The position numbers and the translations under genes were made by a program. A DNA stretch of 34,237 nucleotides from Aneurinibacillus terranovensis DSM 18919 (GTDB taxonomy: Bacteria > Bacillota > Bacilli > Aneurinibacillales > Aneurinibacillaceae): the NCBI RefSeq assembly GCF_000430625.1, contig NZ_AUMJ01000061.1:1-34237 (forward strand). Reading direction: 5' to 3'. How positions within the stretch are numbered: position 1 is the first letter of the stretch; each line of letters begins with the position of its first letter. The notes below the pieces were generated by a model. That model was not told where the DNA came from. It did no database searches and worked only from the letters and a program-made list of their open reading frames with translations. Of the stretch, positions 14,201 through 34,108 are shown piece by piece.

Positions 14201-14222
14201 AGGTATGTTAATAGAATGATTT

Positions 14223-15710: not shown

Positions 15711-17516
15711 TTACACTTCCCTTTTTCGCTCAATGCCGTACTTTCTCATTTTCTTAATGACGGTGGTGTGGGAAACTCCAAGAGCCTGTCCCACCTTGCG
15801 GATCGAACCGTAACGGGATAATGATTGAATGATCAAATCACGTTCCATTTCGTTAAAAGCGTTATAGCTCATATTTTCATCTGTCGTTTGAAGAACGGAA
15901 ATATCTTTTGCATATTCCGCCTTTTCCATTGGTAAAGAAGGATGATGATCGGGCTTTGTCAAGGAATCCTGCAAAGACATGACATCACCCGGAAGATGAT
16001 GCTGCTGGATGGTAGAATCCGGTATAGTAACGACCAAACGTTCAATCAGATTGGACAATTGCCGAACATTCCCCGGCCACGGATACTGTTGCAAAATTTG
16101 AATCACATGCGAGTGAATTATTTTTTTTGTCCCGTATTTTTGATTGTACCGATTTAAAAAATACTGAATCATGGCTGGAATGTCCTCATGCCTTTCACGT
16201 AAAGGCGGGATATGGATCGGAACCACATAAAGCCGGTAAAATAAATCCTCGCGGAACAATCCCTGCTGAATCCGCTCCTGCAAATTGCGGTGAGTAGCGG
16301 CAATAATTCGACAATTCACCTGAACAGGTTCGACTCCACCCACCCGGGTAATTTCCTGTTCTTGCAAAACGCGAAGGACTTTTACTTGAAGGGAAGGTGA
16401 CATTTCGCCAATTTCATCTAAAAAGATCACCCCACCCTCGGCCGCCTCGAATAATCCGACTTTTCCGGATTTTTTGGCGCCGGTAAAAGCACCTGATTCA
16501 TAACCGAACAATTCTGATTCAAGTAACTCCTCCGGAAGAGCTCCACAATTGATTTTCACGAAAGGGCCATGCGAACGGGCGCTATTTTTATAAATAAAAG
16601 AAGCAAGTACTTCTTTTCCGACTCCAGACTCCCCCAGTATTAAAACAGTAGAATCAAAACCGGCTACCCTTTCTGCCAAATCAAATACATTTAACATCTG
16701 CGGAGAGACCGCAATAATTTCCTCAGATTGAACTTGTTTGCGAAGCTTCGATAATTCTATTTGATACTGCTGACTACGGTTTTGTACTATATTCAATTCT
16801 TCCCGTAATCTAGCGAGTTCTGTCGTGTCCCGAATGGTAGAAACCGCGCCTTTGATCTTTCCTGATTCGTCAATAATGGGGACAGCGCTTACAATGTGCT
16901 CTTGACCTGTTGGATATCGTTGCAATCCAATTACTTCCCGTTTTTCCTGCAAAGCTTTCCAGGTTGTCGAGTTTTCCTTAAAAAATCCTTTACTAACCAA
17001 TTCAGTCAGATGCGATCCGACAAAAGTTTTTTTAGGTACGCCGGAAAAACGGCAGAGAGCTGGATTTACCATTGTGACATAACCCAGTGCATCCGTAATT
17101 AAGATTCCATCATAAGCATGTTCGATAATGGAATCAAGCTGGCGGCTTCGCTCTAGGGCTTCCTTATATATATTGTGAATTATCTCCTGCAAGTCGGCTA
17201 CATAAACAACACCGACAAATCTATTTTTTTTATCTACTACACCAACCAAATTGTATCCGACAGGCAGCTTTACTTCTTTTACCTGAGTATCTTCGCAAAA
17301 GAAGGGGACATGCTGAATCCAAACCCCATTTTCTGCTTCTGATGAACAAGACTGAGAACAAATACGAAAAACCCCTGCCCAGTATCCTTCATTGAGAACG
17401 GGTATTTCTTGAAGGGATAGTGATCTCATCTTCGCTGTAATTTGGTGTGCTTGATGCTGTAGTGTATTCAGTTCAATCGTAAAAGCAGGCTTTTGCACAA
17501 TATCCGAAAGAAGCAT
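15711..17516 (-). CDS. Sigma-54-dependent transcriptional activator with PAS domain
   Basis: 601 residues. The N-terminal 115 residues look like a sensory region with CBS-like strands (VGVVDKKNRFVGVVYVADLQ). A PAS domain follows at about 120-230 (DGILITDALGYVTMVNPALC). The AAA+ domain has Walker A GESGVGKE (295-302), the sigma-54-contacting GAFTGA loop (342-347) and Walker B VIFLDEIGE (about 363-371). A Fis/TyrR-type helix-turn-helix ends the chain (GQALGVSHTTVIKKMRKYGI). It must act on -24/-12 promoters, and two such promoters are found in this island; the palindromes upstream of one are its likely sites. It lies between larE and larB. The inducer is unknown, presumably a pathway substrate sensed by the PAS or N-terminal region. 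Confidence 0.93.
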   Translation of the reverse strand: MLLSDIVQKPAFTIELNTLQHQAHQITAKMRSLSLQEIPVLNEGYWAGVFRICSQSCSSEAENGVWIQHVPFFCEDTQVKEVKLPVGYNLVGVVDKKNRFVGVVYVADLQEIIHNIYKEALERSRQLDSIIEHAYDGILITDALGYVTMVNPALCRFSGVPKKTFVGSHLTELVSKGFFKENSTTWKALQEKREVIGLQRYPTGQEHIVSAVPIIDESGKIKGAVSTIRDTTELARLREELNIVQNRSQQYQIELSKLRKQVQSEEIIAVSPQMLNVFDLAERVAGFDSTVLILGESGVGKEVLASFIYKNSARSHGPFVKINCGALPEELLESELFGYESGAFTGAKKSGKVGLFEAAEGGVIFLDEIGEMSPSLQVKVLRVLQEQEITRVGGVEPVQVNCRIIAATHRNLQERIQQGLFREDLFYRLYVVPIHIPPLRERHEDIPAMIQYFLNRYNQKYGTKKIIHSHVIQILQQYPWPGNVRQLSNLIERLVVTIPDSTIQQHHLPGDVMSLQDSLTKPDHHPSLPMEKAEYAKDISVLQTTDENMSYNAFNEMERDLIIQSLSRYGSIRKVGQALGVSHTTVIKKMRKYGIERKREV

Positions 17517-17614: not shown

Positions 17615-18442
17615 TTATTTTGCCATTTCTAATTTTGGAGTCTCTAGTGTTTCATTTAAACTGCCGGTACGGTAGCCTTGTAAATCAATCGTTATATACA
17701 TATATCCGATACTCTTCAGTTTGCTTACAATCATTTCATTGAAACCCGCTAGTTTCTGGATATCTTGAGGTAAAACCTCGATACGAGCTAATTTATCGTG
17801 CTGGCGTACCCTGACTTGACGGAAGCCAATGTCCATTAAGAACTGTTCAGCCTTGTCAATCATCGTTAACTTCTCCTGCGTAATCACCTCACCATAAGGA
17901 ATACGAGAAGAAAGACATGCAAACGATGGTTTATCCCAGGTTCGTAAGCCCAACTGATGTGATAGGGCACGAATTTCCGTTTTGGCTAGCCCCACTTCCT
18001 GCAGGGGAGCACGAACTCCTTTTTCTAAAGCCGCCTTAAATCCTGGACGATAATCACTTAGATCATCAGCAATCGCCCCAAAAACGACGTGATCATAGCC
18101 TCGTTCTTGTGCAATCGGGATCAAATGGCTGAAAAGCTCCTGTTTGCAGTAGTAGCAACGGTTGATTGGATTTTCCGCGTACCCTGGAATATTCAACTCG
18201 CTCGTTTGAATGACAAGGTGTTGGCTACCGATTTCTTTGGCCAGAGCCATGGCTTCTCTCCGTTCGCGCTCTGGATAGGTCTCGGCATCAGACGTTACTG
18301 CCAAAACATTATCTCTTCCTAGCGCTTCAACTGCTGCTTTAAGCAAAAAGGTGCTATCAACTCCACCTGAAAATGCGACCACAACTCGTCGAAGCTGGCG
18401 AAGATTCTCCAGCAACTGTTCATATTTAAGTTGAAATGGCAT
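17615..18442 (-). CDS. larE: LarE: ATP-dependent sacrificial sulfur transferase of nickel-pincer cofactor synthesis
   Basis: 275 residues. LarE adenylates the carboxylates of the LarB product and transfers sulfur to give the dithio-pincer nucleotide. The PP-loop SGGVDS lies at residues 25-30. A single cysteine in FACLSSRIPYG is residue 176, the same position as the sacrificial Cys176 known from Lactobacillus plantarum LarE. The motif lacks extra cysteines of the [4Fe-4S]-dependent LarE type. Other blocks are NPINRCYYCKQELF and FGAIADDLSDYRPG. Start ATG 18442 after AAGGGAGCGTTACAAC. It sits 70 bases after the aldolase gene and about 100 bases ahead of the activator, so it is probably co-transcribed. 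Confidence 0.94.
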   Translation of the reverse strand: MPFQLKYEQLLENLRQLRRVVVAFSGGVDSTFLLKAAVEALGRDNVLAVTSDAETYPERERREAMALAKEIGSQHLVIQTSELNIPGYAENPINRCYYCKQELFSHLIPIAQERGYDHVVFGAIADDLSDYRPGFKAALEKGVRAPLQEVGLAKTEIRALSHQLGLRTWDKPSFACLSSRIPYGEVITQEKLTMIDKAEQFLMDIGFRQVRVRQHDKLARIEVLPQDIQKLAGFNEMIVSKLKSIGYMYITIDLQGYRTGSLNETLETPKLEMAK

Positions 18443-18511: not shown

Positions 18512-19534
18512 CTAGAGGGTTGCTATTTTACAAGTGTTCTGACTTAACTCATATGCAACGTCAATAATTTGGTCCTCTTGACCACCAACGATACGACGTT
18601 TTCCTAATTCAACCAAAATAGCAAGGGGGTCTACACCAAATTGTTCAGCCGCACGCTTTGCGTGCAGGAAGAAACTGCTATATACTCCTGCATAACCAAG
18701 AATTAAAGCCACACTATCAATGATTTGCGGACCAGACATCTTCGGAGCTACAATATTTTCGGCTGCATGGATTAACTTGCCAAGATCACAACCGGTTTGG
18801 TATCCTGCTTTATGCATAGCCGCAATCATGACTTCCGTTTGCGAATTTCCGGCTCCAGCCCCCATGCCGCGCAAGCTTCCATCAACAAACGTAGCTCCTT
18901 CTGCAAGAGCGGCAAGCGTGTTGCCTACTGCACAGCCGAGGTTGTTATGGGCATGGAATCCGACTGGAATATGTATCGCTTCCCGTAAAGCCGACACACG
19001 GGCCCGCACTCCATCCGGCAATAAGGCACCCGCCGAATCTGTCACATATACCACGTCCGCACCATAGCTTTCCATCTTCTTGGCTTGTTCAACCAAACGC
19101 TCCGGTTCTTCCATATGAGCCATCATTAAAAACCCAACGGTAAACAATCCTTCTTTTTTAGCATATTTAATATGCTGTTCGGAAATATCAGCTTCTGTAA
19201 TATGAGTTGCCACGCGAACGGCCTTCGTCCCGTATGCAACAGCCGCTTGCAAGTCCTCAATTGTGCCGATACCAGGCAGAAGCAATACGGTTACTCTACC
19301 GTTCGTAACTGCCTCACTGACTGCTTTCAAATACTCTACATCTGTAGCGCGGCTAAATCCGTATTGAAAGGATGAACCCGCTAAACCGTCACCATGTCCG
19401 ACTTCAATCAGATCTACTCCGGCTTGATCCAAAGCGCCGGCAATTTCAGCCATTTCCGCAGGAGTAAACTGATGTCTGATTGTGTGCATTCCATCGCGAA
19501 GCGTTGAATCTGTAATGGTAATTTTTTGTGTCAT
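18512..19534 (-). CDS. 4-hydroxy-2-oxovalerate aldolase (DmpG/MhpE type)
   Basis: 340 residues. It cleaves 4-hydroxy-2-oxopentanoate to pyruvate and acetaldehyde and belongs to the DRE-TIM (HMG-lyase-like) family. Visible are [18 protein letters not shown] at the N-terminus (metal and catalytic Asp/Arg/His), [16 protein letters not shown] and the metal-binding HAHNNLG near 200. Its ATG overlaps the stop of the preceding dehydrogenase gene (ATGA), as expected for the two-protein complex that channels acetaldehyde. The length is that of the family (about 340-345). Confidence 0.95.
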
Positions 19535-20418
19535 AGTTTAGATGCCTCCTCTTCAACTGCCTGATATTTCGCAATCCGCTGAGCGACGCCCACTGCAGCT
19601 GCCGTAATGATATCCAGGTTACCAGAATAATTCGGTAAATAGTCTCCTGCGCCCTCTACCTCAATAATGGTCGTTACTTTATCCCCGTCCACAATGGAAG
19701 GAACCTTCAAACGGTATCCGGGAACGTAGGTTTGCACTTCTTTTACGATTTCTTCTACAGCCTGTTCAATCGCTTTTTGATCCGGATTCTTCACTTTCGT
19801 ATAGACAGTGTTACGCATCATGATCGGTGGATCGGCCGGATTCAGAATAATGATCGCCTTTGATCGATCTGCGCCGCCAACTTGGTGAATCGCACGGGAG
19901 GTTGTTTTCGTAAATTCATCAATGTTTTGACGGGTTCCGGGTCCTGCGGAACGACTGGAAATCGTCGCTACGATTTCGGCATATTCCACATCCGCAACTT
20001 CATTGATTTTTGCCACAATCGGAATGGTCGCCTGTCCACCGCAAGTAACCAGATTAATATTTGGGCTATTTAGATTTGCCTCCATGTTAACCGAAGGTAT
20101 AACATATGGTCCGACTGCTGCCGGAGTTAGATCGATCGCGCGAATTCCGGCTTCACGTAAGAGCGGTGCATGCTTTACATGAGGTTTTGCCCCCGTACAG
20201 TCAAACACAAGATCGATTTCATCCTTCCGCTCTAAAATGGCGTCAATCCCTTTATCGGAAGTTTCAATGCTCCGCTCGCGGGCCATACGCAATCCGTCCG
20301 ATTCAGCAACAATCCCTACCATTAAACCAAGTTCTAATTCCTCGCAGCGCAACACTTTTAACATTAAGTCAGTACCGATATTTCCCGGTCCGATAATCGC
20401 AGTTCTTAATTTTTTCAT
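19531..20418 (-). CDS. Acetaldehyde dehydrogenase, acylating (DmpF/MhpF type)
   Basis: 295 residues from the ATG at 20418 (GGGGGAATCAAGG upstream; an ATG 18 bases earlier lacks a good site). It converts acetaldehyde, NAD+ and CoA to acetyl-CoA, receiving acetaldehyde from the partner aldolase. The N-terminal Rossmann motif is [11 protein letters not shown], and the catalytic cysteine is in [12 protein letters not shown] (C126 from this start). Other family blocks are [20 protein letters not shown] and [15 protein letters not shown]. The 4-base overlap with the aldolase gene suggests coupled translation in fixed ratio. Confidence 0.95.
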
Positions 20419-20442
20419 CCTTGATTCCCCCTGCAATCGATT

Positions 20443-21228
20443 TTACTTTGACTGAAAACCAACCTGAACAGTTCCAACGCCGCCGAAATAGGCTGTATAA
20501 AGATCTCCAGGCCTTACCTCGTATGCTTTCGTAAATGAGCCTGACAGAACGATATCTCCTGCTTTCAGACCCTCACCAAATGCAGCCAACTTGTTACATA
20601 ACCACGCGACCGCCGCTGCCGGATGGCCCAACACTGCTGCGCCTGCGGCTGTGTCAACTACCTCTCCGTTACGCTCCAATACCAAACCAATCGTCCGGAG
20701 ATCCAAATCACTCACAGGAATACCTCGGCTCCCCAGTACTAAAGCTCCAAACGATGCATTATCGGCAATTGTATCTTGGATTTTAATTTTCCAATCCCGT
20801 ACTCGGCTGTCGATAATCTCAAAAGCAGGGACGATGTAATCGGTCGCCCGGATAACATCATGGAAATGTACGCCAGGCCCCTGTAAGTCATGCTTCATAA
20901 CAAAAGCCAGTTCCGCCTCTACCTTAGGTTGAAGAAATTGTTCATACGGAACAAGGCTTCCTTCCGGTAAAAGTGCATGTTCGAACAATGAACCAAAATC
21001 CGGTTCGGGAACTCCAAGTGCGTTTTGCATGGCCTTTGAAGTTAACCCGATCTTATGTCCGATTAGACGGCTTCCGGATTCCAGTTTCCATGCCTGGACT
21101 TGTTTTTGTATTGCATAAGCATCCTCCACTGTAATATCCGGGTACGTTTCCGTCAACGGATCGATCGGCTGCCTGTTGTTGTCGGCTTCCCATAAATTTT
21201 TCGCTGCTTGTTCTACTATCAGACGCAT
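20443..21228 (-). CDS. 2-oxopent-4-enoate hydratase (DmpE/XylJ/MhpD type)
   Basis: 261 residues of the fumarylacetoacetase-like hydratase/decarboxylase family. It adds water to 2-hydroxypenta-2,4-dienoate to form 4-hydroxy-2-oxopentanoate. The metal ligands are in KVEAELAFVMK and FEIIDSR, followed by VRDWKIKIQDTIADNAS, which fits the hydratase branch (DmpE) better than 4-oxalocrotonate decarboxylase (DmpH). I rely on remembered family sequences, so the hydratase/decarboxylase call is likely rather than certain. Start ATG 21228 after AAGGAAGATTCA. A MITE-like repeat lies just upstream, between this gene and the MoCF gene. Confidence 0.9.
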   Translation of the reverse strand: MRLIVEQAAKNLWEADNNRQPIDPLTETYPDITVEDAYAIQKQVQAWKLESGSRLIGHKIGLTSKAMQNALGVPEPDFGSLFEHALLPEGSLVPYEQFLQPKVEAELAFVMKHDLQGPGVHFHDVIRATDYIVPAFEIIDSRVRDWKIKIQDTIADNASFGALVLGSRGIPVSDLDLRTIGLVLERNGEVVDTAAGAAVLGHPAAAVAWLCNKLAAFGEGLKAGDIVLSGSFTKAYEVRPGDLYTAYFGGVGTVQVGFQSK

Positions 21229-21466: not shown

Positions 21467-22402
21467 CTAGCTTGAATAGTGAACGTGTACTTGATGAGGA
21501 TGATGGGAATGACCATGTACACCTACCGTTTTCATCCACCGCTCTCGAAGAAGGTTGGCCAACTGTTCTCCGAGGACTTCCGGCTCCGGCTGCTGCTCGA
21601 TGCTGGCTACAAGGGCATCGGCACAGAGCCGGACTTCCTCATTCGGTCCGGGAAGTGTAACTAAATAACTCAACCCTTCCTTGGCAACTCCAATGCGAAT
21701 GCCATCCTTAACATGTCTGCCATGTCCACGAGTGAATTTCGCAATATAAGGCGTTGCTGCATCCGGACAAACCTTAAGTAAAGCTTCGACCGTACAATCC
21801 TTATCTTCCGCCCCAACCCCGCCGGTGGTTACAATCAGGCCGAACCCCTGATCCAGAGCTTGCCTTAACGCGCCAGCAATTTCATCAATATCGTCCGCTA
21901 ACGGTCGATGGGTTTGCACCTTACATCCCACATCCGTAAAACGGTTTACAAGGTATGGCGTATTCGTATCCTCGATCATGCCCTTTCCAACCTCAAAGCC
22001 GGTAGGGAATACCTTCACACGGCGGCGAATGCGATTTTGAATTTCGCTGCCCATCGCAGCGCTCTGTTCGACTACCTGTTTGGCTTCTACCGGAGATAAA
22101 GCAATCATGCCCAATACCCCTTCGGAATGAATATCCGCATTCGGACCGAGATGAACTCCCGGAAAGGAACCGACCGCATTCAGCAGTTCTTCCTTCTTCC
22201 CTACAAACTGATCATCATTCATTGAATGAACGAGCAAGTCCAAGGCAATGTGATCTTCCCGGACGTCGATGACAAATACTCGGTCCCTGGGCAGTTTTAA
22301 TACCGCGGCTACCGTATTTGCGATTTCCGACAAATCGCAATCACTCAGATAAACGTCCGTCAAACGGAGTTCCGTTTTATTTAAAAGACTATACTCCATC
22401 AT
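21467..22402 (-). CDS. MoCF-domain (Mog/MoeA/CinA-like) protein with His-rich C-terminal tail; candidate metal-insertion factor
   Basis: 311 residues. The first 120 or so are not recognised. From about 120 the MoCF nucleotide/pterin-binding fold is seen: VFPTGFEVGKGMIEDTNTPY, then VTTGGVGAEDKDCTVEAL and VTLPGPNEE. Relatives of this fold adenylate molybdopterin or insert molybdenum. The last 16 residues carry seven histidines (VHGHSHHPHQVHVHYSS), a likely nickel-binding tail. It starts 47 bases after the NadC-like gene, within a locus holding LarB, LarE and a nickel transporter but no LarC. I infer a role in activating or metallating the pincer nucleotide. A molybdenum-cofactor role is the alternative, but no molybdoenzyme gene is seen in the window. 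Confidence 0.75.
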   Translation of the reverse strand: MMEYSLLNKTELRLTDVYLSDCDLSEIANTVAAVLKLPRDRVFVIDVREDHIALDLLVHSMNDDQFVGKKEELLNAVGSFPGVHLGPNADIHSEGVLGMIALSPVEAKQVVEQSAAMGSEIQNRIRRRVKVFPTGFEVGKGMIEDTNTPYLVNRFTDVGCKVQTHRPLADDIDEIAGALRQALDQGFGLIVTTGGVGAEDKDCTVEALLKVCPDAATPYIAKFTRGHGRHVKDGIRIGVAKEGLSYLVTLPGPNEEVRLCADALVASIEQQPEPEVLGEQLANLLRERWMKTVGVHGHSHHPHQVHVHYSS

Positions 22403-22448: not shown

Positions 22449-23294
22449 TTATTCGAACGCTACGATATCCACACGCATATCGAGCAGTGGAGCGTTTAGA
22501 ATGGATGCTCCCACATCTACCAAATCAACCGGAAGATCGCGAAGCAAGAGTAATGTCTCCTCTGTCACGCCACCCGCAAAAGCTACCTTGACATCTCGAC
22601 GAACGCTAAGCTGGTCCAGGATTTTCAAAACGACCTCAAGATCCTTCAGGGATCCAGTATCCACCATGAGTACGTTAGCTCCTCCTTGAACTGCTTCCTG
22701 TGTTTCCTCGGCAATTGATTGCAATTCACCTCGAATTTGGATGACTGTTTTATGATCAGGAAACTGCGCAGCCGCATCTAGTGCTTTGCCGACCCCTCCG
22801 AACATCCGGACATAATTTTTGTCAATGTACACAAACTGACCATCTACCATACGCATACCGATGCCCGCTGCCGAAAGTGCAGCATGCAGACCTGACTTGG
22901 ATTCCTGCGGTAGTTTTTTCCACCCCCCGCAAACGACCTTCAATTTGGAACCTGCAATAAGCTGAAGTTGACGAGCACGCGTTGCGTAACCGGATGGAAC
23001 CATCATAGCCCCAAGCACCCTATCTTCTGCTATGGCTACACTCTTTGGCGTCCCACGGAAGGATAAGATGACGTCCCCCGGCCGCACAGCCGTCCCGTCT
23101 TCCAAACAGTACAATAATTCACAACCAAGTTCATGCACGAACTCCGTTGCGCGCCTGGTATGTGCTAAAATCCCACAGTTCGTAGCTACCACTTGAGCTG
23201 TAAATATACGTTGTTGAATCGGTTTAAATAGCGTATCGCGAAGATCAGGCGCCCCATCTCCTATCTTTTTTTGGGCTACTTGAGACATGCTCAT
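22449..23294 (-). CDS. NadC-like phosphoribosyltransferase with altered substrate pocket
   Basis: 281 residues, the length of quinolinate phosphoribosyltransferase (NadC) and ModD. The C-terminal barrel side is family-typical: VLMVDTGSLKDLEVVL, VKVAFAGGVTEETLLLL, DVGASILNAPLLDMRVDI. The usual DTRKT block reads GGWKK (123-127), the NHR block reads GMR (146-148), and DNH is replaced by IDKNYV. So the pyridine-carboxylate side differs while the phosphoribose side is kept. It could make nicotinate mononucleotide for the LarB pathway or use another ring acid. Start ATG 23294 after AAGGAGGATCCTC. It is the first main gene behind a sigma-54 promoter and is followed by the MoCF gene. Confidence 0.75.
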   Translation of the reverse strand: MSMSQVAQKKIGDGAPDLRDTLFKPIQQRIFTAQVVATNCGILAHTRRATEFVHELGCELLYCLEDGTAVRPGDVILSFRGTPKSVAIAEDRVLGAMMVPSGYATRARQLQLIAGSKLKVVCGGWKKLPQESKSGLHAALSAAGIGMRMVDGQFVYIDKNYVRMFGGVGKALDAAAQFPDHKTVIQIRGELQSIAEETQEAVQGGANVLMVDTGSLKDLEVVLKILDQLSVRRDVKVAFAGGVTEETLLLLRDLPVDLVDVGASILNAPLLDMRVDIVAFE

Positions 23295-23795: not shown

Positions 23796-24512
23796 CTATT
23801 GCATCCAAAGTTTGAATAAACCCTCGGTTACTCCCAAATTATACATATAATAAAGCCCAAATACGGTACTAATTCCACCGGTAATTTGCGTAAGTTTTAT
23901 ATTTACACTGACCTTATTCGCACTAAACACAAACGGAATCCCAATAACTGTTGTAAATAGGAGCATACCAATGACAGTTCCGACCCCAAATACAAGTATA
24001 TACACAGCACCTTCCCAAGCGCTCTTAACTGTAGACATTGTTAACAGAACCATTGCTGCACTTCCTGCTAGTCCATGTATTAGACCAACTAACATTGATT
24101 TTATATAGAAAATATCTTTATGTTGGTGTTTATGCCTATGCTCACTATCATGTTTGTGGGAATGGAAATGCTTATGTAACTCTCCATTATGTTTATGCTC
24201 ATGAGAGTGGATATTTTTAAAAGAAAGGATACTTGTAACTCCAAGATAAACCAACATAATCCCCACCAAAAATTCTAAAGACATAGCCCATTTATCTGGT
24301 ATTTCACCCTTCATAAAAATAAGAATAAGACCAACAATAAACAACGTTGTCGTATGGCCAATTCCCCAAAAAACTCCCGCTAAAGAAGAGCGCCATAGTC
24401 TTTTACTTTGACTTGCAATGGTCGAAACGGCTATGACATGGTCAGGTTCAATTGCATGTTTAACCCCAAGAAGAAATCCTATGGCCAAAACCGATAGTAA
24501 GCTCCCTTCCAT
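23796..24512 (-). CDS. NicO/UreH-type nickel transporter with His-rich loop
   Basis: 238 residues, about six membrane helices. The first helix carries the nickel/cobalt-transporter signature HAIEPDH within LLGVKHAIEPDHVIAVST. A second motif, GLIHGLAGSAAMVLL, follows a cytoplasmic or external loop (about 100-135) with more than a dozen histidines (HSHEHKHNGELHKHFHSHKH and on). Family members bring in Ni2+ or Co2+. Placement between ubiD and the NadC-like gene makes nickel supply for the pincer cofactor the natural role. Start ATG 24512 follows ATAGGAGTGGGATGA. Its base composition is more AT-rich than its neighbours, so it may have joined the locus separately. Confidence 0.88.
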   Translation of the reverse strand: MEGSLLSVLAIGFLLGVKHAIEPDHVIAVSTIASQSKRLWRSSLAGVFWGIGHTTTLFIVGLILIFMKGEIPDKWAMSLEFLVGIMLVYLGVTSILSFKNIHSHEHKHNGELHKHFHSHKHDSEHRHKHQHKDIFYIKSMLVGLIHGLAGSAAMVLLTMSTVKSAWEGAVYILVFGVGTVIGMLLFTTVIGIPFVFSANKVSVNIKLTQITGGISTVFGLYYMYNLGVTEGLFKLWMQ

Positions 24513-24669: not shown

Positions 24670-26052
24670 CTATTCTGAATGTACCGATTTGATAGTGGCC
24701 TCAGAATTGATATAATCGTCTACTTTTATTTCGTCATAACCAGGAATATATACTTTTAAATAGCGCATAGGTTCGCTGTTTAACGGAACGGTACAATCCA
24801 ATCCCATCTTAGAGCCTACTCCTTCCTCCGTAGACGGATCCAGTTTTGATCCCTGGGAACTGTGGACTAGTACTAAATCTTTTTCCGCTTGAAAGCGAGT
24901 TGCAATCGCCCACTCTACCTCTTCCATATTAAAAATATCGACTTCTTCATCCACAACAACGACATGTTTAATATCAAAACTATTGGCAAAGGCTGCGATA
25001 ATGGCATTTTTCGCCTCACCCTCGTTTCTTTTCTTAATGGAGACGATGGCGTGGTAGCGGCAGGTTCCACCTGGGCTCATGTGGACAGCCTTTACACTTG
25101 GAACAGTTTGACGGATGGTTTGGAACAAACTTGCCTCGCGAGGAATGCCTCCCAATAGAAGATGCTCATAGCCAGCTGGTACAATCGTATAAAAAATCGG
25201 ATTATTCCTGTGAGTAACCGCTGTAATTTGGACGACCTCCTTGTTACTACGCGGTCCGTAATATTTTGGAAATTCGCCAAAAGGTCCTTCCGGCTCACGC
25301 ACATGAGGTAGAATCTTACCTTCAAGCACAATTTCTGCAAAAGCAGGCACATCGATGTCAACCGTCTCACAACGAACCACTTCCAGCGGCTCTCCGCGTA
25401 GGGAACCCGCAATTTCCAGTTCATCGACTCCATATGGTGTACTCGCTTGCGAAGCCAGCAAAGTAACCGGATCGACTCCTATGACAATCGCACATTCCAA
25501 AGCCCTTCCTTCTTCCTCTGCCTGCTTGTACAGATGGAATGTATGGCGAGGAAGGATCAGCGCGCCCAGCTTGTCTTTTCCGGAAACCTGAAGACGATGA
25601 ATGGAAACGTTCTGCTTGCGGGTTACCGGATCACGAACAATAAACAGTCCTGCTGTAATATAGTTGCCCGAATCTTTCTCATGGTGAACAGGAATCGGAA
25701 ACATCTTCATCAAATTGATATTTTCTAGAATGATATTTTCCTTTACTGGAGCCTCGGTATGATCCACCAACCGACAGGGTGTTGGTGACGCTACCGCTTC
25801 AGTAAACTTAGGGATAATTCCGTGCTGATCGGTTTCCAACGCTTCAGCGAAATCTTCACGGCTGGAACAAATGCCGGAGACAACGGGAATTGAATATCCC
25901 TCTACCGCTGTAAAATAGGTTGCTTTTTTTCCATCCAACTTCTTGCTTACAGCAGCAACTTCATATTGTAAACTGACGTTTTTATCAATCACAGCCAATC
26001 GGTCTTTCGATTGAAGATACTGCATCCACGTTCGGAATGTCTTTGCTCTCAT
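24670..26052 (-). CDS. UbiD-family prenylated-FMN decarboxylase
   Basis: 460 residues from the ATG at 26052 (GGAGGAGACATTAGG upstream; an in-frame ATG at 26097 lacks a site). UbiD enzymes use prenyl-FMN to remove or add CO2 on alpha,beta-unsaturated or aromatic acids. The catalytic region REPEGPFGEFPKYYG shows the E-x4-E pair, and an arginine lies in VSIHRLQVSGKDKLGA, matching the conserved Arg-Glu-Glu set. Other blocks are CAIVIGVDPVTLLASQ and SKMGLDCTVPL. The cofactor partner UbiX is encoded 3 kb upstream in the same direction. The substrate cannot be read from sequence; context suggests an aromatic, furanic or muconate-like acid made by the adjacent oxidoreductases. Confidence 0.92.
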   Translation of the reverse strand: MRAKTFRTWMQYLQSKDRLAVIDKNVSLQYEVAAVSKKLDGKKATYFTAVEGYSIPVVSGICSSREDFAEALETDQHGIIPKFTEAVASPTPCRLVDHTEAPVKENIILENINLMKMFPIPVHHEKDSGNYITAGLFIVRDPVTRKQNVSIHRLQVSGKDKLGALILPRHTFHLYKQAEEEGRALECAIVIGVDPVTLLASQASTPYGVDELEIAGSLRGEPLEVVRCETVDIDVPAFAEIVLEGKILPHVREPEGPFGEFPKYYGPRSNKEVVQITAVTHRNNPIFYTIVPAGYEHLLLGGIPREASLFQTIRQTVPSVKAVHMSPGGTCRYHAIVSIKKRNEGEAKNAIIAAFANSFDIKHVVVVDEEVDIFNMEEVEWAIATRFQAEKDLVLVHSSQGSKLDPSTEEGVGSKMGLDCTVPLNSEPMRYLKVYIPGYDEIKVDDYINSEATIKSVHSE

Positions 26053-26140
26053 CCTAATGTCTCCTCCTATAATCCTTTTTCTGATTTTTATGCTCAAGTT
26101 TGCGGCTAGTCAGCCATGATAGTTTTATGATGAAGTATGA

Positions 26141-27328
26141 TTAAAATATTTCTTTTAGCAATTGTAACACTTCCGACTCGGATGGCTGACGTGGATTAAA
26201 CTTCATCATCCCGCTCTTGAACGAATCCTTAGCAATTTCGAAAAGCTTCTTCTCTGTTACATCCACTTCCCTCAAACGAGTTGGAAGTCCAATATCCTCT
26301 ACAAGCCGTGCAACAGCAGGACTTGCCTGAAGAGCCAGCTCTTCCGAATGCTCCCCCTTCATTCCCATTAACCCGGCAATCTTGGCCGCTTTATCCGGAC
26401 GGACAGTAGCATTAAATTCTACTACCTTTGGCAACAAGAGTCCTATGGCAACTCCATGCGGGACATGACAATGTCCGGAAAGAGCGCTGCCAATCGCATG
26501 GGCAAGACCCAAAAATCCGTTGTTAAACGCCATTCCTGCTAATAAACTGCCATGTGACATTCCGATTCGCGCTTCCATGTCGGAACCATTATGCACAGCA
26601 CGACTAAGGTACCTATTTACTGTATGGATTGCTTCTATCGCTAAAGCATCGGACGCCGGACTCGACCCGAGAGAGAAGAATGTTTCAATACCGTGGGCCA
26701 ATGCATCGATACCGGAAGCAGCGGTCATTTTCGCAGGCAAGCTCATAGTCAATGCCGGGTCGACCCATGCAATGGTTGGTGCCATATACTGACTGGTCAC
26801 AGTTACCTTCACATTATTTTGCCAATCGGAATAAACGCCAAAGTTCGTCACCTCACTCCCTGTGCCGGATGTAGTCGGGATAGCGAGCAGAGGAATCGTT
26901 GGAGCAACCGGAATCTGGTTTACTCCGGCATAATGACCGATATTTCCTCCATTGGCTGCAACGACGCGGATTCCCTTCGCTGTATCAATTGGACTTCCAC
27001 CACCGACCGCGACAATGCAGTCATAAGGTTTTTGCTGAAAAACTTCAACTCCACGGTCAATTGTCTCTAGGCTAGGGTCAGATTCTACATCTGTATAGAT
27101 ATCAAATTGAATTGCCGCTGCCTGCAACGAATCAGTCAATGCAGCGAGCAATCCAGCTGATTCAACTCCTTTATCTGTTACCATAAATATCCGTTTAACT
27201 CCAATTGATATAAGCTGTTGTCCAAATTTTTCCATTTTTCCGTACCCGAACTCAATAAGAGTAGGGAGATTAAATGAAAATTCAAAATTTATCGCCTTCA
27301 CTGCCGGGCTTATAGTCACTATATACAC
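26141..27328 (-). CDS. Iron-type (group III) alcohol dehydrogenase
   Basis: 395 residues. NAD(P)-binding GGGSPIDTAKG (109-119). Metal ligands D206 and H210 in GIDALAHGIE, H275 in LAHAIGSA and H289 in CHVPHG. It interconverts an alcohol and an aldehyde. It sits between the aldehyde dehydrogenase gene (20 bases upstream) and ubiD (about 90 bases downstream), so oxidation alcohol to aldehyde to acid to decarboxylation is suggested. Several ATG/GTG/TTG starts are possible; the annotated one follows GAAAAAGGAGTGTAT. Confidence 0.92.
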   Translation of the reverse strand: MYIVTISPAVKAINFEFSFNLPTLIEFGYGKMEKFGQQLISIGVKRIFMVTDKGVESAGLLAALTDSLQAAAIQFDIYTDVESDPSLETIDRGVEVFQQKPYDCIVAVGGGSPIDTAKGIRVVAANGGNIGHYAGVNQIPVAPTIPLLAIPTTSGTGSEVTNFGVYSDWQNNVKVTVTSQYMAPTIAWVDPALTMSLPAKMTAASGIDALAHGIETFFSLGSSPASDALAIEAIHTVNRYLSRAVHNGSDMEARIGMSHGSLLAGMAFNNGFLGLAHAIGSALSGHCHVPHGVAIGLLLPKVVEFNATVRPDKAAKIAGLMGMKGEHSEELALQASPAVARLVEDIGLPTRLREVDVTEKKLFEIAKDSFKSGMMKFNPRQPSESEVLQLLKEIF

Positions 27329-27349: not shown

Positions 27350-28816
27350 TTAATCGATTTCAAAATGAATGTGCTTCGTTTCACAATATTCCATTAAGCC
27401 GTCAATTCCACGGGTACGTCCTTGACCACTTTGCTTATATCCACCAAATTCCGCTTCTGGAAAGTTCTTATTGTATGTGTTAATCCAAACTGTACCGGCT
27501 TTGATGCCTTTTGACATCCTCATAGCACGATTTACGTCTGTTGTCCAAACACCGGCAGATAGTCCAAAATCGGAATCATTAGCCATGACAAGTGCTTCTT
27601 CATCAGTAGAGAAGGATTGTACTGCTAGAATCGGCCCAAAAATTTCTTCCCGTACTACCCGGCAAGAGGACGCCAATTCATCAATGATCGTTGGAGCAAA
27701 GAAATAACCCTTATCGTAGTCCCCACCTGTTAGCCGATAACCGCCCGTAATGATTTTTCCTTCACGGCGGCCAATTTCACTATACTCTGCAACCAAATCC
27801 AACTGGCTTTGTGAAGCAACCGGCCCCATATCTGTCGTCTCATGAATTCCATTGCCCACCTGCAGATTTTCCGCATACTGTTTTAAGCGGAACACTACTT
27901 CATCTTTAATAGACTTATGTACTAACAATCGAGAACCTGCCATACAAATCTGTCCGGCAGAAATAAAGATGGATCGTCCAATTAAAGGAATCGCCTTATC
28001 CAAATTGGCATCTGGGAACACGACATTTGGTGATTTTCCGCCCAACTCCAACGCCAGTTTTTTGATATTGCTCGTTGCCATTTCCATTATCGTCTTACCG
28101 GTGGAAGTATCGCCGGTGAAACTGATCATATCGATTTTTTTGCTTTTTCCCATGGCTGCACCAATCGCACGCCCAGGTCCCGTTACAATACTCACAATTC
28201 CTTTTGTAAAGTCCGGAACTTGGTCAATCAGCTTGAAAATTTCCACGGATATTGCAGGTGTTAGGCTTGCCGGTTTCACAATTACTCCGTTACCAGCTGC
28301 CAAAGCAGGGGCCAACTCCCGAATCATGAGAAGGGCAGGCCAGTTCCAGGGACAAATAATCCCTACTACGCCAATCGGCTCCTTTGCAATGACACCAAAA
28401 TTATTGGGTTCAAGCTGGATCGAGCGTCCAAATATCGTTCGGGCCGCACCAGCAAAATATTTTAAAGTATCGATACAACCCGTTAGCTCTTGTCGTGACT
28501 CACGAATGGTTTTGCCCTGCTCCATCGTCAATACACGTGCAAGATGCTCTATATTTTCTTCCATTAATTGAGCTAACCCTAACAAAGCATTATAACGGCG
28601 CTTTGGATTATACCCCCAATCACTCTGGTTAAACGCATGAAATACCGTATCAATCGCTTGTTTCACATCCTGAACGGTTGAATTTTGCGCGTACCCTACA
28701 ACCTCACCCGTTGCTGGGTTTTTCGACTCCAGCAATTCTTTAGAGGAAGAATCTGTCCACTCCCCATTAATATAGTTGTAATAAATAACCTGTTTCGAGT
28801 TAGTTAATGTAGCCAT
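27350..28816 (-). CDS. NAD(P)-dependent aldehyde dehydrogenase
   Basis: 488 residues from the ATG at 28816, preceded by GAGGAGGAGAAAA; a longer start at 28837 would overlap ubiX and is less likely. Family marks are PWNWPALLMI (about 155), LALELGGKSPNVVF with the general-base Glu (about 260), SAGQICMAGSRL with the catalytic Cys (about 295) and EIFGPILAVQSF (about 390). It oxidises an aldehyde to the acid. It could be the 2-hydroxymuconic-semialdehyde step of a meta pathway or act on the aldehyde formed by the adjacent alcohol dehydrogenase. The exact substrate is not visible. Confidence 0.92.
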   Translation of the reverse strand: MATLTNSKQVIYYNYINGEWTDSSSKELLESKNPATGEVVGYAQNSTVQDVKQAIDTVFHAFNQSDWGYNPKRRYNALLGLAQLMEENIEHLARVLTMEQGKTIRESRQELTGCIDTLKYFAGAARTIFGRSIQLEPNNFGVIAKEPIGVVGIICPWNWPALLMIRELAPALAAGNGVIVKPASLTPAISVEIFKLIDQVPDFTKGIVSIVTGPGRAIGAAMGKSKKIDMISFTGDTSTGKTIMEMATSNIKKLALELGGKSPNVVFPDANLDKAIPLIGRSIFISAGQICMAGSRLLVHKSIKDEVVFRLKQYAENLQVGNGIHETTDMGPVASQSQLDLVAEYSEIGRREGKIITGGYRLTGGDYDKGYFFAPTIIDELASSCRVVREEIFGPILAVQSFSTDEEALVMANDSDFGLSAGVWTTDVNRAMRMSKGIKAGTVWINTYNKNFPEAEFGGYKQSGQGRTRGIDGLMEYCETKHIHFEID

Positions 28817-28827
28817 TTTTCTCCTCC

Positions 28828-29418
28828 TCAAGTCCATTTTTTAGCCTTCCCTATCGTTTGCTCCATTCCTTCCCACCGCGTAAACAAATTGGCTTCAATA
28901 TCGAATTGATCCAGTGCTTTCTGAATACTTTGATCTACAATATCATCAATCGTTTTGGGTAAATGATAGAAAGATGGAACCGGGGGAAGAATAACTCCTC
29001 CCATTTGAGTAACGCTCATCATATGTTGAATATGCCCCAGATGTAAAGGGGTCTCGCGCAGCATAAGCACCAGTTTTCTGCGTTCTTTTAATTGAACATC
29101 CGCAACTCTGGTCAGCAGTTCACTATTAAAACTATTAGCAATCCCTGCAAGCGTCTTTATGGAGCAAGGAGCAACAATCATTCCATTTACTTTAAAAGAC
29201 CCGCTTGAAATCGCGGCCCCCAAATCACGGTTGTCATATACTTTTGCAGCCATCCTGTATATATCTTGCGAACGATAATTCGTTTCGTATTCGATCGTTT
29301 TCAAGGCTGTTTCACTGATTACGAGGTGAACCTCGATTCCCAACCTGTGCAGCGCTTCCACGGTCCGAACACCATATATGGCACCGCTTGCACCTGAAAT
29401 CCCTACAACCATTCTCAC
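28828..29418 (-). CDS. ubiX: UbiX flavin prenyltransferase
   Basis: 196 residues. It makes prenylated FMN, the cofactor of UbiD. Rossmann-like FMN site GISGASG (6-12). Further blocks are MIVAPCSIKTLAGIANSF, LKERRKLVLMLRETPL (phosphate binding) and ILPPVPSFYHLPKTIDDIVD. Length matches the family. Start ATG 29418 after GGTGAACAAACGTGAGA. Its presence beside ubiD, rather than at a housekeeping site, indicates a dedicated supply for this pathway. Confidence 0.95.
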   Translation of the reverse strand: MRMVVGISGASGAIYGVRTVEALHRLGIEVHLVISETALKTIEYETNYRSQDIYRMAAKVYDNRDLGAAISSGSFKVNGMIVAPCSIKTLAGIANSFNSELLTRVADVQLKERRKLVLMLRETPLHLGHIQHMMSVTQMGGVILPPVPSFYHLPKTIDDIVDQSIQKALDQFDIEANLFTRWEGMEQTIGKAKKWT

Positions 29419-29449: not shown

Positions 29450-30806
29450 TTATTGAAAATTGCCTTTTGTTTCTGGAATAATAAAACTTCCTATCAGATA
29501 AATGATATAGATTGCTATGGAAAAATAAGCAAGGGCATGAGGAATACTGCCGGTCCAACTGCTGGCCAACGATACAAACGTCGGCATAATACCGCCAAGC
29601 GCAAACCCTATGTTCCAGGAGATACCTGTACCGCTGGAACGAATGGCTGTCGGAAACCTCTCATTCAAAAAGATCATTACAGGTGCGTATCCGGCATTAC
29701 CTAATGCCGCAAGTCCCATAGCATACAACGTAATCGAAGTGACATCCGTTGAGTTCCCTAATCCTAACGCAAGCAGAGGCATCCCAATTATGTTCATAAT
29801 TCCGATAAGCACAAAGGATTTCTTTCTTCCAATCACATCGCTAAGATACCCGAATCCTAACGCAGAAACGATCGCAGCCACACTTGCTCCCATCAGAATA
29901 AATGATGCTGTAGAAGGCGGAATCTTGTTAACCATCTTCAAAAACGTCGGAAGGTATCCGGCTGTCAAATAGTAACCGGCACCACCAAAAACAATCATCA
30001 GGTTTACAAGTAATACCGATAGATATTTGGAAAACACAATACGAACTGGTGATTCTTCTAGCTTTGGTTGTTCCACCTTATTTTTTCCCTTCTCTTTACG
30101 CAATTGAACCCATAACGGGGATTCTTTCCAATGCCTTAAATACATAGATACCGAAGATAGAGCTAAGGATACCGCTAAAGAACATCATCCTCCAGCCCCA
30201 TTCGTTAAACGCTTCATTTGGAGACGCTGCCGAAACGATGAAATATACAATAGATGCCAGCAATGCTCCAAAACCAGCACCTCCACCGCCGATTATACCG
30301 GACATCGTTCCCCGCCACTGAGGCGGAACAGATTCAGTGCCGATCGTATGAGTAGCTACCACCCCGCCAACAAAAATCCCCTGAACTAAGCGAAGGACAA
30401 GAAAAATAATTGAAGCCATAATACCAACTTGATCAACTGTAGGCAGAACGCCGAACAACGCGGAAGCCACACCGACACCAACAAACGCTACGATCATAGC
30501 TCCTTTTCTCCCATGTTTATCAGCATATGCACCAAAAATGGCGGAACCGACCGGACGCATAATTAACGTCACCGCAAACGATGCGTAAACAGCAGCCAGA
30601 GAAAGCACAGGAATATCCGAAGGAAAGAACAGCTGGCCAACCACAGGCGCAACATAAAGCAGAATAAACAAATCAAAAAGATCCAAAGATCATCCTAAAA
30701 CAGATGCAATCGAAGCCCTTACCATTTGACGATTATCAACAGGTGGGATTGACGGGTTTGTATTTGAAGCAGTTGATACATTAGATGCACTGGATAGATT
30801 AGACAT
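29450..30806 (-). pseudogene. MFS transporter (aromatic/organic-acid type) with a nonsense codon and a frameshift
   Basis: The native start is ATG 30806 after GGGGGAGAAAT: MSNLSSASNVSTASNTNPSI and on to ASIASVLG, then TGA (30688-30690), then SLDLFDLFILLYVAPVVG. A tryptophan (TGG) is expected at that place. A second lesion near 30125 shifts the frame: VFKALE continues as KESPLWVQLRKEKGKNK in the next frame, an extra base in TTGGAAAG. Joined, it is about 450 residues with 12 helices, GAYADKHGRKGA after helix 2 and GYLSDVIGRKK in the second half. It resembles MHS-type uptake carriers for aromatic or small organic acids. Unless these are sequencing errors, it is inactive. Confidence 0.85.
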
Positions 30807-30927: not shown

Positions 30928-32355
30928 TTATGAATTAACTAGGATTCCTCTTTGTTTCAGCCATTTCGGCATCAAGATATTATCAACTTTCGCACTAACC
31001 TTCGGAGCGATCTCCAATAGTTGATCCGCCAAGGAACGGCTCACATTGATACCACCGACTGCACCGTCAAACACAATCACTTTATCCGTTCCGGTCGTCT
31101 TGTAGGCAAACTTCATCGAATCGTCCAGGTTTTCTGCTACCATTGCATATTTCATATACTCCATATTTTGCGGATCATGTTCAAACAGATCCGCCTGTTC
31201 CTTTCCTACTACCAGCGTTGGCACCTGCTGTGAGAAGAAAGCGCTCGGATATCCGATCCACGCGTAATTATGCACTACCATTTTGATCGCAGGGTTGACT
31301 GGTTGTACATCCGGAATCAGTGGTTTTCCATCCTTTCCATACAACGCTTCCGTGTACCACGTATATGGTGCGAGCTTAACATCCAGGTCGAACAGATCGC
31401 AATTTGCTCCGACAAAGTTACAATAAATCACCCCAGCTGAGAATACATACGGAACCGGACAAGGGAAATCCAAACCGACAATACACTCATCAATTTCCCC
31501 TAACAACTGAAATACTTTCCCATAGTGACGCAGACCATCCAGAGTGATAATATCATTAATACGGTATAAGTCATTATCTGCTTCAATGCTAATTACACCG
31601 CTTGGAGACATGTTCATAAACACGGCTCCCACGAATTTGCTTTGCACAAACGGAGATTCGAAAATCGCTCTGGCCGTAAAATTCGCCCCCCGCGGTCCTA
31701 AATTTTGATGGTATGTCGACCGCGTTTCAATCCGCGCATAAGACATTCCAAACGGTTTCACCGCACGGTCTACCTGGCGGTGGAAATGGACTTCGCGTAC
31801 ATCACTGTTATGTACGTGGATAATCCAATCTGCGTCATATGTCCATTTCAGACCATAAAGTGTTCCGATTTCTGTTTCAATGGGAATGCCTTCATCAATT
31901 GGGGCCATTCCTCTGGCCCGGTCAAAATGCTTTTTCAAATCAAAACGTTTAATATATTCTTCTGTCTCCCGAAAACGAAGTCCCACTCCTGCACGCAAAC
32001 GGACTTCCTTGGCTCCTGTCCGTTTCTTCACCACGTCATAAACCGTTTTCAGTAATTCTGCATATGGCTCTCCGCCTAGGAGCGTAAATCCATGGTGGGA
32101 GGCCAGGATATTGACGGTATGGTTCGGCTGAATCATGGACAGATCAACTTTTTCCAATGCCGCTTCAGCATGGCGACGAATGGAGTAGATCCCTTCTTCA
32201 CTCGGATAAATGATCTCAGGGACATCTGGAAATAGTTCATTCAGCATCAGCGACGTCATATCTGGCAGATCAGCAAACCGCTTTTTCACCAATCCCGGAT
32301 CTACGCCATATCGCGAAGCCCGGGGGGCAAGAGGTTGAATCGGTGCACGGTACAT
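30928..32355 (-). CDS. Divergent LarA-family nickel-pincer-nucleotide enzyme
   Basis: 475 residues, longer than lactate racemase (about 425). Alignment by eye to Lactobacillus plantarum LarA places H190, K200 and H216 at the spacings of His174, Lys184 (covalent cofactor link) and His200 (nickel ligand), 10 and 16 residues apart. Local matches are REVHFHRQ against the EPHYFAG region and K+10/11 E-T in both. The upstream GIPIETEIGTLYGLKWTYDADWII fits the family segment before it. The THR segment with catalytic His108 appears as GLR (about 125-127) and the Arg75 site as SHH (86-88). So the cofactor site is kept but the acid/base set is changed, arguing for a different substrate or reaction. Its ATG overlaps the ferredoxin-gene stop (TAATG). 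LarB and LarE are encoded in the same island. Confidence 0.72.
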   Translation of the reverse strand: MYRAPIQPLAPRASRYGVDPGLVKKRFADLPDMTSLMLNELFPDVPEIIYPSEEGIYSIRRHAEAALEKVDLSMIQPNHTVNILASHHGFTLLGGEPYAELLKTVYDVVKKRTGAKEVRLRAGVGLRFRETEEYIKRFDLKKHFDRARGMAPIDEGIPIETEIGTLYGLKWTYDADWIIHVHNSDVREVHFHRQVDRAVKPFGMSYARIETRSTYHQNLGPRGANFTARAIFESPFVQSKFVGAVFMNMSPSGVISIEADNDLYRINDIITLDGLRHYGKVFQLLGEIDECIVGLDFPCPVPYVFSAGVIYCNFVGANCDLFDLDVKLAPYTWYTEALYGKDGKPLIPDVQPVNPAIKMVVHNYAWIGYPSAFFSQQVPTLVVGKEQADLFEHDPQNMEYMKYAMVAENLDDSMKFAYKTTGTDKVIVFDGAVGGINVSRSLADQLLEIAPKVSAKVDNILMPKWLKQRGILVNS

Positions 32356-33014
32356 TATTCTTCCCCCTTTTTAACTAGACAAGATTGATTGGATAGAGGG
32401 GCGTTGCGAATCTTATCCATGAAATCGATGTCTGCATCAAAATAAAAACCGCGTTGAGCATACTTCTCTTTCACCTCATCAGGAATATCCCAAATTGTTG
32501 GTGTCGCCCCATACCATTGGTACCGACCCGTTGGCGTTTCTGGTTGGATTCCCGCGGCACTCAGAAGGCGAATGGCCGGTTGGAGGCATTCCACGGTACA
32601 GCCTGTGCGCAAGCCGGTTGCCTGCGAAATTTTATCCGGAGAATCCGCTCCCTGAAGAATGGCGGCAGCCACCTCTTCCGCACGGGTGCTGGTACAGTAG
32701 CAAATGATTTGTTCCGGATGAAAATGTGCATCATAACAAATTTTCCGTACTTCTTCATAATCTGATTGACCAACATCCACGCCAATCATGCGCGATTTCT
32801 CCAACTTTGTCATCTCAATGGCATCAAACGGACAGCGCTGTTCGCAAGCGGTACAGCCTGTGCAGTTTTCCTCTTTGACTACTGCCAGCTTTCTATGCTT
32901 GGTTCCTGGAACTGGATCCATGGTAATGGCTAAGGTTGGACAGACTTGAGCGCAAATCTTACAGCCCGTACATTTATCATTGATAATGACTGCTGTCGTA
33001 TTAATTAAGCGCAT
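32355..33014 (-). CDS. Ferredoxin with two [4Fe-4S] clusters plus BFD-like [2Fe-2S] domain
   Basis: 219 residues. N-terminal cysteine sets C15-C18-C21-C25 and C51-C54-C57-C61 fit two [4Fe-4S] clusters. A BFD-like domain follows with CYC (105-107) and CTVEC (139-143), the usual CxC-N31-CxxxC arrangement for one [2Fe-2S]. The last 70 residues are not recognised (GRYQWYGATPTIWDIP). No membrane or export signal. Start ATG 33014, eight bases after GAGGAG; an ATG four bases earlier gives only five codons. It is translationally coupled to the larA-like gene, so it is probably the electron partner or a subunit of that enzyme. Classical lactate racemase needs no such partner. Confidence 0.85.
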   Translation of the reverse strand: MRLINTTAVIINDKCTGCKICAQVCPTLAITMDPVPGTKHRKLAVVKEENCTGCTACEQRCPFDAIEMTKLEKSRMIGVDVGQSDYEEVRKICYDAHFHPEQIICYCTSTRAEEVAAAILQGADSPDKISQATGLRTGCTVECLQPAIRLLSAAGIQPETPTGRYQWYGATPTIWDIPDEVKEKYAQRGFYFDADIDFMDKIRNAPLSNQSCLVKKGEE

Positions 33015-33138: not shown

Positions 33139-33630
33139 TTATTGCACCAAAATGGAACCTAATTGGTACCACATAGTTTCCATATAACCATTAACCCAAT
33201 TGATGCTAATGGAACCAGAAAGCAAAACCAATGAGCTGTAATCGGAACCGGAAGCCAAACCGGAGGACTCAACCACAGCTTCAAGAGCCTGAGGGGCAAT
33301 CATTTTCCCTCCTACCGCAGCTACTGCAAAACAGGCCGCAATTCCAACAGTGGGCAAGTGAGTAATTTGCGCCGCATAGGACTGCAAACCACCAAACAAC
33401 GCAATGGATGCCGAATTGCTGCCTGTTAAAAACGTTCCGAGCCAACCCATAAGGGGAGCTTTCCACACTATTCCGGCCAATCTTGCGGTCAGCAACAAAA
33501 CCACACCGTACGTAATTACCGGCTTTATCCATCCAGTTACAAGCAGCAGGCAAAGGATGAATAGCGGTAAGACAGCCAATAGCACCGACCACCCAATGGG
33601 AGAGACGGGAGTATAAGTCTGCATGAACAT
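33139..33630 (-). pseudogene. L-lactate permease (LctP/LldP) with a large internal deletion
   Basis: An open frame of 163 residues from ATG 33630 (GAAGGTG upstream). The first 35 residues, MFMQTYTPVSPIGWSVLLAV and on, match the start of lactate permeases. After VTGWIKP the text jumps to the C-terminal part, WKAPLMGWLGTFLTGSNSAS with ALFGGLQ and AVGGKMIAPQALEAV. The family has about 530-560 residues, so some 370 are missing in frame. It cannot be a working carrier. Its place ahead of the larA-like gene suggests the island once imported a 2-hydroxy acid. Confidence 0.8.
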
Positions 33631-33677
33631 GATCGATACACCTTCGTTCATGATTAAATGATAATTTGATAGGAACC

Positions 33678-34088: not shown

Positions 34089-34108
34089 TTCGCTACGCCC
34101 AACTCTAC

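Follow-up and report, generated by a model that had tools for sequence, protein, structure and literature searches.

The locus examined here raises the question of whether a diverged relative of lactate racemase, encoded next to a ferredoxin and amid genes for nickel-pincer cofactor synthesis and, putatively, furan breakdown, is a racemase at all. The window (the whole stretch of Aneurinibacillus terranovensis DNA that was analysed, 34,237 nucleotides) contains an open reading frame that a first-pass annotation had described as a LarA homologue with its cofactor-binding residues kept and its catalytic set changed. The coordinates given for this frame proved exact, and the gene, which lies on the minus strand, is itself intact. 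We term its product LarAx and its neighbour FdBFD.

30928..32355, minus strand: LarAx, predicted LarA-fold catalytic subunit; 475 aa, K200/H216 corresponding to Lys184/His200 of LarA
32355..33014, minus strand: FdBFD, ferredoxin subunit with 2x[4Fe-4S] and a BFD [2Fe-2S] (Pfam)

Fold and active-site residues of LarAx

None of the 52 LarAx members matched PF09861 or any other plausible Pfam model, the window protein had no NCBIfam match, and phmmer and hmmsearch searches of PDB sequences connected LarAx with no LarA. An unconstrained profile-profile alignment (hhalign) with about 30 LarAs placed K200 on Lys184 and H216 on His200 with an E value of only 0.017. Given these negative and marginal outcomes, the case for LarA homology from sequence alone was dropped.

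A structural model was predicted with AlphaFold2 from alignment A2, which holds 52 sequences (relatives 42-89% identical to the window protein); its mean pLDDT is 89.5 and its pTM 0.89. With this model as query, only five Foldseek matches fell below 0.001, all of them LarA or malate racemase (Mar2) structures. VIA-align superposed it on LarA entries with Z of 19.3-20.5 over 314-352 residues (rmsd 3.8-6.7) and on 4nar with Z of 17.8; the next row, a methyltransferase, is the best unrelated chain at Z 6.7. The two-domain fold seen in both comparisons bears out the LarA membership that had been proposed, with structure prediction as its check, and judging from the model LarAx almost certainly has the LarA fold.

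The spacings of 10 and 16 noted by eye between H190, K200 and H216 are as described (H190-x9-K200-x15-H216). In A2, residue 190 is His in 36 sequences, Tyr in 12 and Asp in 4. The match of the three residues to LarA exceeds chance, since K200 and H216 are invariant in 52/52 relatives from several phyla. Two further observations also held up. The GFSGG stretch (LarA 178-182) is replaced by QVDRA at 194-198, so that the FSGG loop is gone, and LarAx is about 50 residues longer than LarA: 475 aa versus what we take to be 424 in the L. plantarum enzyme, whose PDB chain has 433 residues.

His108, reported to read Leu, corresponds to L126 without gaps and to R127 under hhalign, so that His is missing in either register; most relatives have Leu, Met or Phe at residue 126. 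LarAx thus lacks the catalytic His108/His174 pair of LarA, residue 190 being His in the 36 of 52 sequences already mentioned. Because His108 is lost and the counterpart of His174 varies, a two-base (two-histidine) racemase mechanism appears unlikely from the alignment.

The cofactor site is only partly preserved. The Lys and His ligand positions are invariant, whereas the full set of cofactor-binding residues claimed to be kept is not: Asp72 and Arg75, the residues with which LarA holds the nucleotide's ribose and phosphate (PMC12611868, PMC11770544), have not been conserved. In a register mapped by sequence and not by coordinates, this region reads HHGFT in clade A and EHGF or QYGF in clade B, the two groups of the family described below. 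Clade A has no Asp or Arg at the two positions, except for one Arg at residue 87 (L071). The His assigned to Arg75 was misplaced: Asp72/His73 align with H87/H88, and depending on the register Arg75 is matched by Phe, Thr or Gly.

Ferredoxin partner and cofactor genes

In the window, the last base of FdBFD is the first base of LarAx. FdBFD lies upstream of LarAx in every named locus for which upstream sequence is available (49/49), and its stop is separated from the LarAx start by 0-138 nt or overlaps it slightly (L086 judged by its nearer copy). At two loci (L065 and L078) FdBFD is extended N-terminally into a Pyr_redox_2/Fer4_20 NAD(P)H-FAD reductase of 434-514 aa, and in L061 a pyruvate:ferredoxin oxidoreductase is encoded shortly downstream of LarAx. 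The pairing of the ferredoxin with LarAx is well supported, and the simplest reading is that electrons run via FdBFD to LarAx. The first-pass annotation had suggested another substrate or a non-racemase reaction. Its second half gains from the constant ferredoxin partner and the NAD(P)H-reductase fusions, which argue for a non-racemase reaction; a substrate is proposed below. LarAx is the catalytic half of a ferredoxin-coupled family, not an isolated racemase variant, and is probably a redox enzyme.

Several copies may occur together. L086 carries three FdBFD-LarAx pairs at one locus (1578-15278), with a UbiD gene between two of them; three LarAx genes are also present in the MAG behind L083, L090 and L091, and two in the MAG behind L087 and L089.

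Every characterised LarA homologue is a racemase or epimerase (PMC7583248, PMC11770544), and a chiral C5 hydroxy-oxo acid occurs in the downstream enzyme set. LarAx might likewise be a nickel-pincer isomerase of a hydroxy or oxo acid of the pathway, with the ferredoxin serving only to reactivate or reduce the cofactor. We regard this as improbable. The two-histidine mechanism cannot run with His108 lost family-wide and His174 variable, and the one-to-one ferredoxin partner, fused to an NAD(P)H reductase at two loci, suggests that electrons are used in turnover.

The genes that bear on a cofactor of LarAx are the following.

14923..15681, minus strand: LarB, the carboxylase of nickel-pincer cofactor biosynthesis (NCBIfam NF033503: 291 bits against a cut-off of 175)
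17615..18442, minus strand: LarE, sacrificial sulfur transferase (NCBIfam TIGR00268, 349.9 bits, cut-off 150)
23796..24512, minus strand: NicO-type nickel/cobalt transporter (Pfam PF03824 and PF13386)
22449..23294, minus strand: QRPTase/NadC-like protein, a NadC paralogue with the quinolinate Arg replaced (TRKT to GWKK)
21467..22402, minus strand: MoCF protein of MogA/MoaB fold, extended at the N terminus by a further domain of ~120 aa

Of 25 further LarAx genomes, 22 have a LarB that scores above its cut-off; none above the cut-off was found in Breznakiella or Oscillibacter sp. 1-3. The complete chromosome of Breznakiella homolactica (L056) has LarAx, the QRPTase-like and MoCF genes and four PF09861 matches, with no LarB above the cut-off. 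Eight genomes have LarB but yielded no PF09861 LarA (G000, which is the window's genome; G307, G114, G092 and G030; G603, Fusibacter; G604, Desulfomonilaceae; and G607, Anaeromyxobacter), so that LarAx is the sole candidate recipient of the cofactor there. Such genomes, the Lys and His invariant in 52/52 sequences, and the presence of LarB/LarE, usually with LarC, in the same cluster as LarAx in Bacilli all speak against a LarA fold with a non-nickel cofactor or none, whose neighbouring LarB and LarE would serve other LarAs. That alternative draws on the loss of Asp72 and Arg75, the lack of any Pfam relationship and the few LarAx genomes without LarB above the cut-off; we think it quite doubtful. 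LarAx very probably carries a nickel-pincer-type cofactor.

Whether this is the same tethered nickel cofactor as in LarA, as had been suggested, is a separate matter. The invariant Lys/His positions favour the suggestion, as do the genomes that pair LarB with no LarA candidate other than LarAx, whereas the loss of Asp72/Arg75, together with two extra co-conserved genes, brings sameness into question. The cofactor may be a modified version of NPN.

The two extra genes encode the QRPTase-like and MoCF proteins, each found in 42/51 named loci and fused in one protein in five (L048, L070, L071, L073 and L075). The former belongs to the QRPTase family and retains Lys126, Arg148 and Asp212 of NadC; unlike NadC, it has Trp-Lys-Lys in place of the quinolinate Arg-Lys-Thr motif. 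It scores 83.6 bits against the NadC model TIGR00078, under the cut-off of 198.4, and an identity as ordinary NadC was rejected because a genuine NadC is encoded elsewhere in the genome. The MoCF part resembles MogA/MoaB molybdopterin adenylyltransferases in domain fold (Z up to 16.9) and in its TTGGxG motif; it differs from them in the extra ~120-aa N-terminal domain, which falls outside the matches, and in co-occurring with LarAx and the QRPTase-like gene. By predicted fold and GG motif this gene is of MogA/MoaB type, and its function is likewise a prediction. We infer that the pair acts in making, modifying or loading the cofactor. With the ribose and phosphate contacts lost in LarAx, a modified cofactor is conceivable. 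In G095, a canonical LarA cluster (LarE, LarA, nickel transporter, LarC and lactate permease; L017/L018) lies ~7 kb from a complete LarAx cluster on the same contig, and neither a QRPTase-like nor a MoCF gene stands beside the canonical cluster.

The first-pass annotation had counted on local larB/larE and accessory genes. LarB and LarE are indeed in the window; the assembled genome, however, has no LarC, and making the cofactor may therefore take more than the local genes provide. Each of the nine Bacilli relatives has LarC within or close to the cluster (9/10 Bacilli when G000 is counted), and a LarC-free system with MoCF as a new nickel insertase was rejected for this reason. In Alicyclobacillus-type clusters (G208, G307, G114, G092 and G030) LarC consists of two genes or pieces flanking FdBFD-LarAx, and nickel insertion may therefore differ there. 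Given the absence of LarC, the local LarAx copy may be unloaded; the pathway is perhaps in decay in this strain, or a gap in the assembly may hide the LarC gene. Two neighbouring genes are damaged.

29450..30686, minus strand: MFS transporter split by a frameshift into two overlapping frames (a single ORF in relatives)
33139..33651, minus strand: lactate permease-family gene, C-terminal fragment, near IS-like sequence at the contig end

The right end of the window (33139-34237) holds this truncated gene and the IS-like sequence. Together with the missing LarC, the damage points to a cluster that is decaying or incompletely assembled in this strain. Several transposase-like fragments (1975-3273, 7223-8313, 9593-10258 and 13153-13965) break up the sugar ABC-transporter genes in the left part of the window and the stretch downstream of LarB.

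Furan pathway genes and a proposed reaction

The remaining genes of the cluster point to furan metabolism.

24670..26097, minus strand: UbiD family, HmfF-like (2,5-furandicarboxylate decarboxylase); PDB 6h6v, active-site His and Arg kept
28828..29418, minus strand: UbiX-like prenyl-FMN synthase (tblastn matches to UbiX genes that adjoin UbiD in relatives; UbiX identity by eye)
26141..27328, minus strand: iron-type alcohol dehydrogenase (ADH; conserved linkage, family by eye)
27350..28837, minus strand: aldehyde dehydrogenase (ALDH; conserved linkage, family by eye)
20443..21228, minus strand: 2-oxopent-4-enoate hydratase-like, DmpE family (best model TIGR03220; conserved linkage)
19531..20436, minus strand: acylating acetaldehyde dehydrogenase (AcDH), DmpF-like (family by eye)
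18512..19534, minus strand: 4-hydroxy-2-oxovalerate aldolase, DmpG-like (family by eye)
15711..17516, minus strand: PAS/sigma-54-type activator, probable regulator (by eye)

The closest PDB entries to the window UbiD are 6h6v/6h6x (E 1.4e-171; the next unrelated entry has 5.8e-60), which we take to be HmfF of Pelotomaculum. The His and Arg of the HmfF furan site are kept by alignment (PMC7976604). With HmfF as closest relative and the furan-specific residues present, this UbiD is, by sequence, of HmfF type. The product of HmfF is 2-furoate (PMC12064950).

At the other end of the pathway, the hydratase scores 309 bits against the DmpE model TIGR03220, which is under the cut-off of 408.8 yet still makes this its best model. 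Together, a hydratase, aldolase and acylating acetaldehyde dehydrogenase of this kind convert 2-hydroxypenta-2,4-dienoate to pyruvate and acetyl-CoA. The mass balance connects the two ends: 2-furoate (C5H4O3) plus 2H gives C5H6O3, which is 2-hydroxypenta-2,4-dienoate, the substrate of the hydratase set. The known aerobic furoate route needs a molybdenum furoyl-CoA dehydrogenase. No HmfA-type molybdenum hydroxylase was found in G000, G116, G114 or G092 (4/10 cluster genomes), and the known furoyl-CoA route is consequently absent from these; oxidation of furoyl-CoA by a molybdenum enzyme encoded elsewhere was rejected on the same ground. Hydration of 2-furoate was also rejected, since it would give 2-oxoglutarate semialdehyde and need neither the ferredoxin nor the hydratase and aldolase.

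We propose that LarAx is a nickel-pincer, ferredoxin-fed reductive ring-opener of 2-furoate, a reading of substrate and reaction that we hold to have even chances of being right. 5-Hydroxymethylfurfural (HMF) and related furans would be oxidised by ADH and ALDH to 2,5-furandicarboxylate (FDCA), which the HmfF-like UbiD would decarboxylate to 2-furoate. LarAx and the adjacent ferredoxin would form a two-subunit oxidoreductase, in which an NPN-type pincer would be loaded on K200 with H216 as nickel ligand and FdBFD would relay electrons, with reduced ferredoxin or NAD(P)H as their source. The pincer would thereby become a net hydride donor rather than a hidden-redox racemase. Hydride addition at C5 of 2-furoate with opening of the C5-O bond would yield 2-hydroxypenta-2,4-dienoate. 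From there the hydratase, aldolase and acetaldehyde dehydrogenase would lead to pyruvate and acetyl-CoA.

Besides the loss of Asp72/Arg75, the missing LarC and the genomes without LarB above the cut-off, further points weigh against this reading. The hydratase, being under the curated DmpE cut-off, could act on another oxo acid, and the substrate could be a CoA ester rather than the free acid in Alicyclobacillus, where an AMP-forming ligase is encoded beside LarE. More broadly, LarAx might reduce a CoA thioester (2-furoyl-CoA) or another unsaturated or aromatic acid, with the C5 set receiving the product of some other ring; AMP ligases and MaoC-type dehydratases near clade B loci also fit this option. 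Within the available locus sequence, however, no AMP ligase was found in the Aneurinibacillus cluster or most clostridial operons, the HmfF product is a free acid, and the BenE aromatic-acid transporter gene that adjoins LarAx downstream in L051 suggests uptake as the free acid. This option is unlikely in our estimation, albeit the most serious competitor to ring opening of free 2-furoate.

The relatives show how far ring opening of 2-furoate by LarAx might extend. Clostridia have a compact operon (QRPT-MoCF-hydratase-AcDH-aldolase-ferredoxin-LarAx), often without UbiD, which implies that the core reaction connects the substrate of the hydratase with some acid. The hydratase is present in 27/51 named loci, all of clade A, and despite rearranged gene order is usually co-operonic with aldolase, AcDH and ferredoxin. 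Clostridial loci often carry a neighbouring gene for a protein of the M24 (creatinase/prolidase) family (L051 13480-14586, with similar ORFs in L048, L049, L052 and L061); its product perhaps frees furoate from an amino-acid conjugate.

The tree of the family has two fully supported groups. Clade A (36 rows) is mainly from Bacillota, with H190 and HHGFT and with the hydratase in the locus for 28 rows. Clade B (16 rows) comes from Desulfobacterota, Myxococcota and other MAGs, and has Tyr or Asp at 190. None of the 16 clade B sequences has the hydratase set in its locus, and a tie to furoate therefore does not hold for the entire family. Active-site residues covary with context, as would be expected of one chemistry acting on several substrates. 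The viral contigs searched contained no LarAx relative.

Implications and comparison with known systems

To our knowledge, racemases and epimerases are the only enzymes in which the nickel-pincer cofactor has been found to date, and the literature searched yielded no paper that joins it with furoate or ferredoxin and no enzyme for oxygen-free furan ring opening. Tentatively, and with less assurance than we attach to furoate ring opening itself, LarAx may represent a new class of nickel-pincer oxidoreductase: ferredoxin-coupled LarA-fold enzymes whose modified pincer is finished by the QRPTase-MogA-like pair, and which reduce aromatic and heteroaromatic acids without O2, with 2-furoate ring opening in clade A and other substrates in clade B. 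If true, the cofactor drives real redox reactions besides racemisations, and a ferredoxin-paired LarA-fold family would place it in net redox catalysis. The family would offer a candidate enzyme for opening the furan ring without oxygen, which bears on how furfural and HMF might be removed biologically from biomass streams, and would point to two unrecognised cofactor genes, the QRPTase-like and MoCF genes.

Compared with the LarA superfamily (PF09861, DUF2088; PDB 5huq, 6c1w, 9eia and 7s91), LarAx shares the two-domain fold (Z ~20), the covalent-tether Lys and ligand His at identical spacing, and, in many genomes, the proximity of LarB, LarE and LarC. It differs in lacking detectable Pfam similarity, a conserved His108, Asp72 and Arg75 and the FSGG loop, and in having a constant ferredoxin partner and extra QRPT and MoCF genes in place of a hydroxy-acid racemase context. 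The nearest precedents for a changed catalytic set are LarA Sp and LarA Bw (PDB 9q3k and 9q3j), for which unknown chemistry has been proposed; they have the same fold, keep the Lys/His and have lost one catalytic His (PMC12611868). There, His108 and Asp73 are kept and His174 is replaced by Asn (PMC12611868), whereas LarAx shows the reverse, with His108 and the Asp lost, and LarAx, unlike these proteins, has a redox partner.

The upper part of the proposed pathway resembles the HMF/furoate pathway of Cupriavidus and Pseudomonas (hmfABCDE, hmfFGH; PMC12064950), in which an HmfF-type decarboxylase and alcohol and aldehyde dehydrogenases likewise lead to 2-furoate. The present cluster differs in having no molybdenum furoyl-CoA dehydrogenase or oxoglutaroyl-CoA hydrolase. 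Its lower route would instead consist of LarAx-ferredoxin followed by a meta-cleavage tail.
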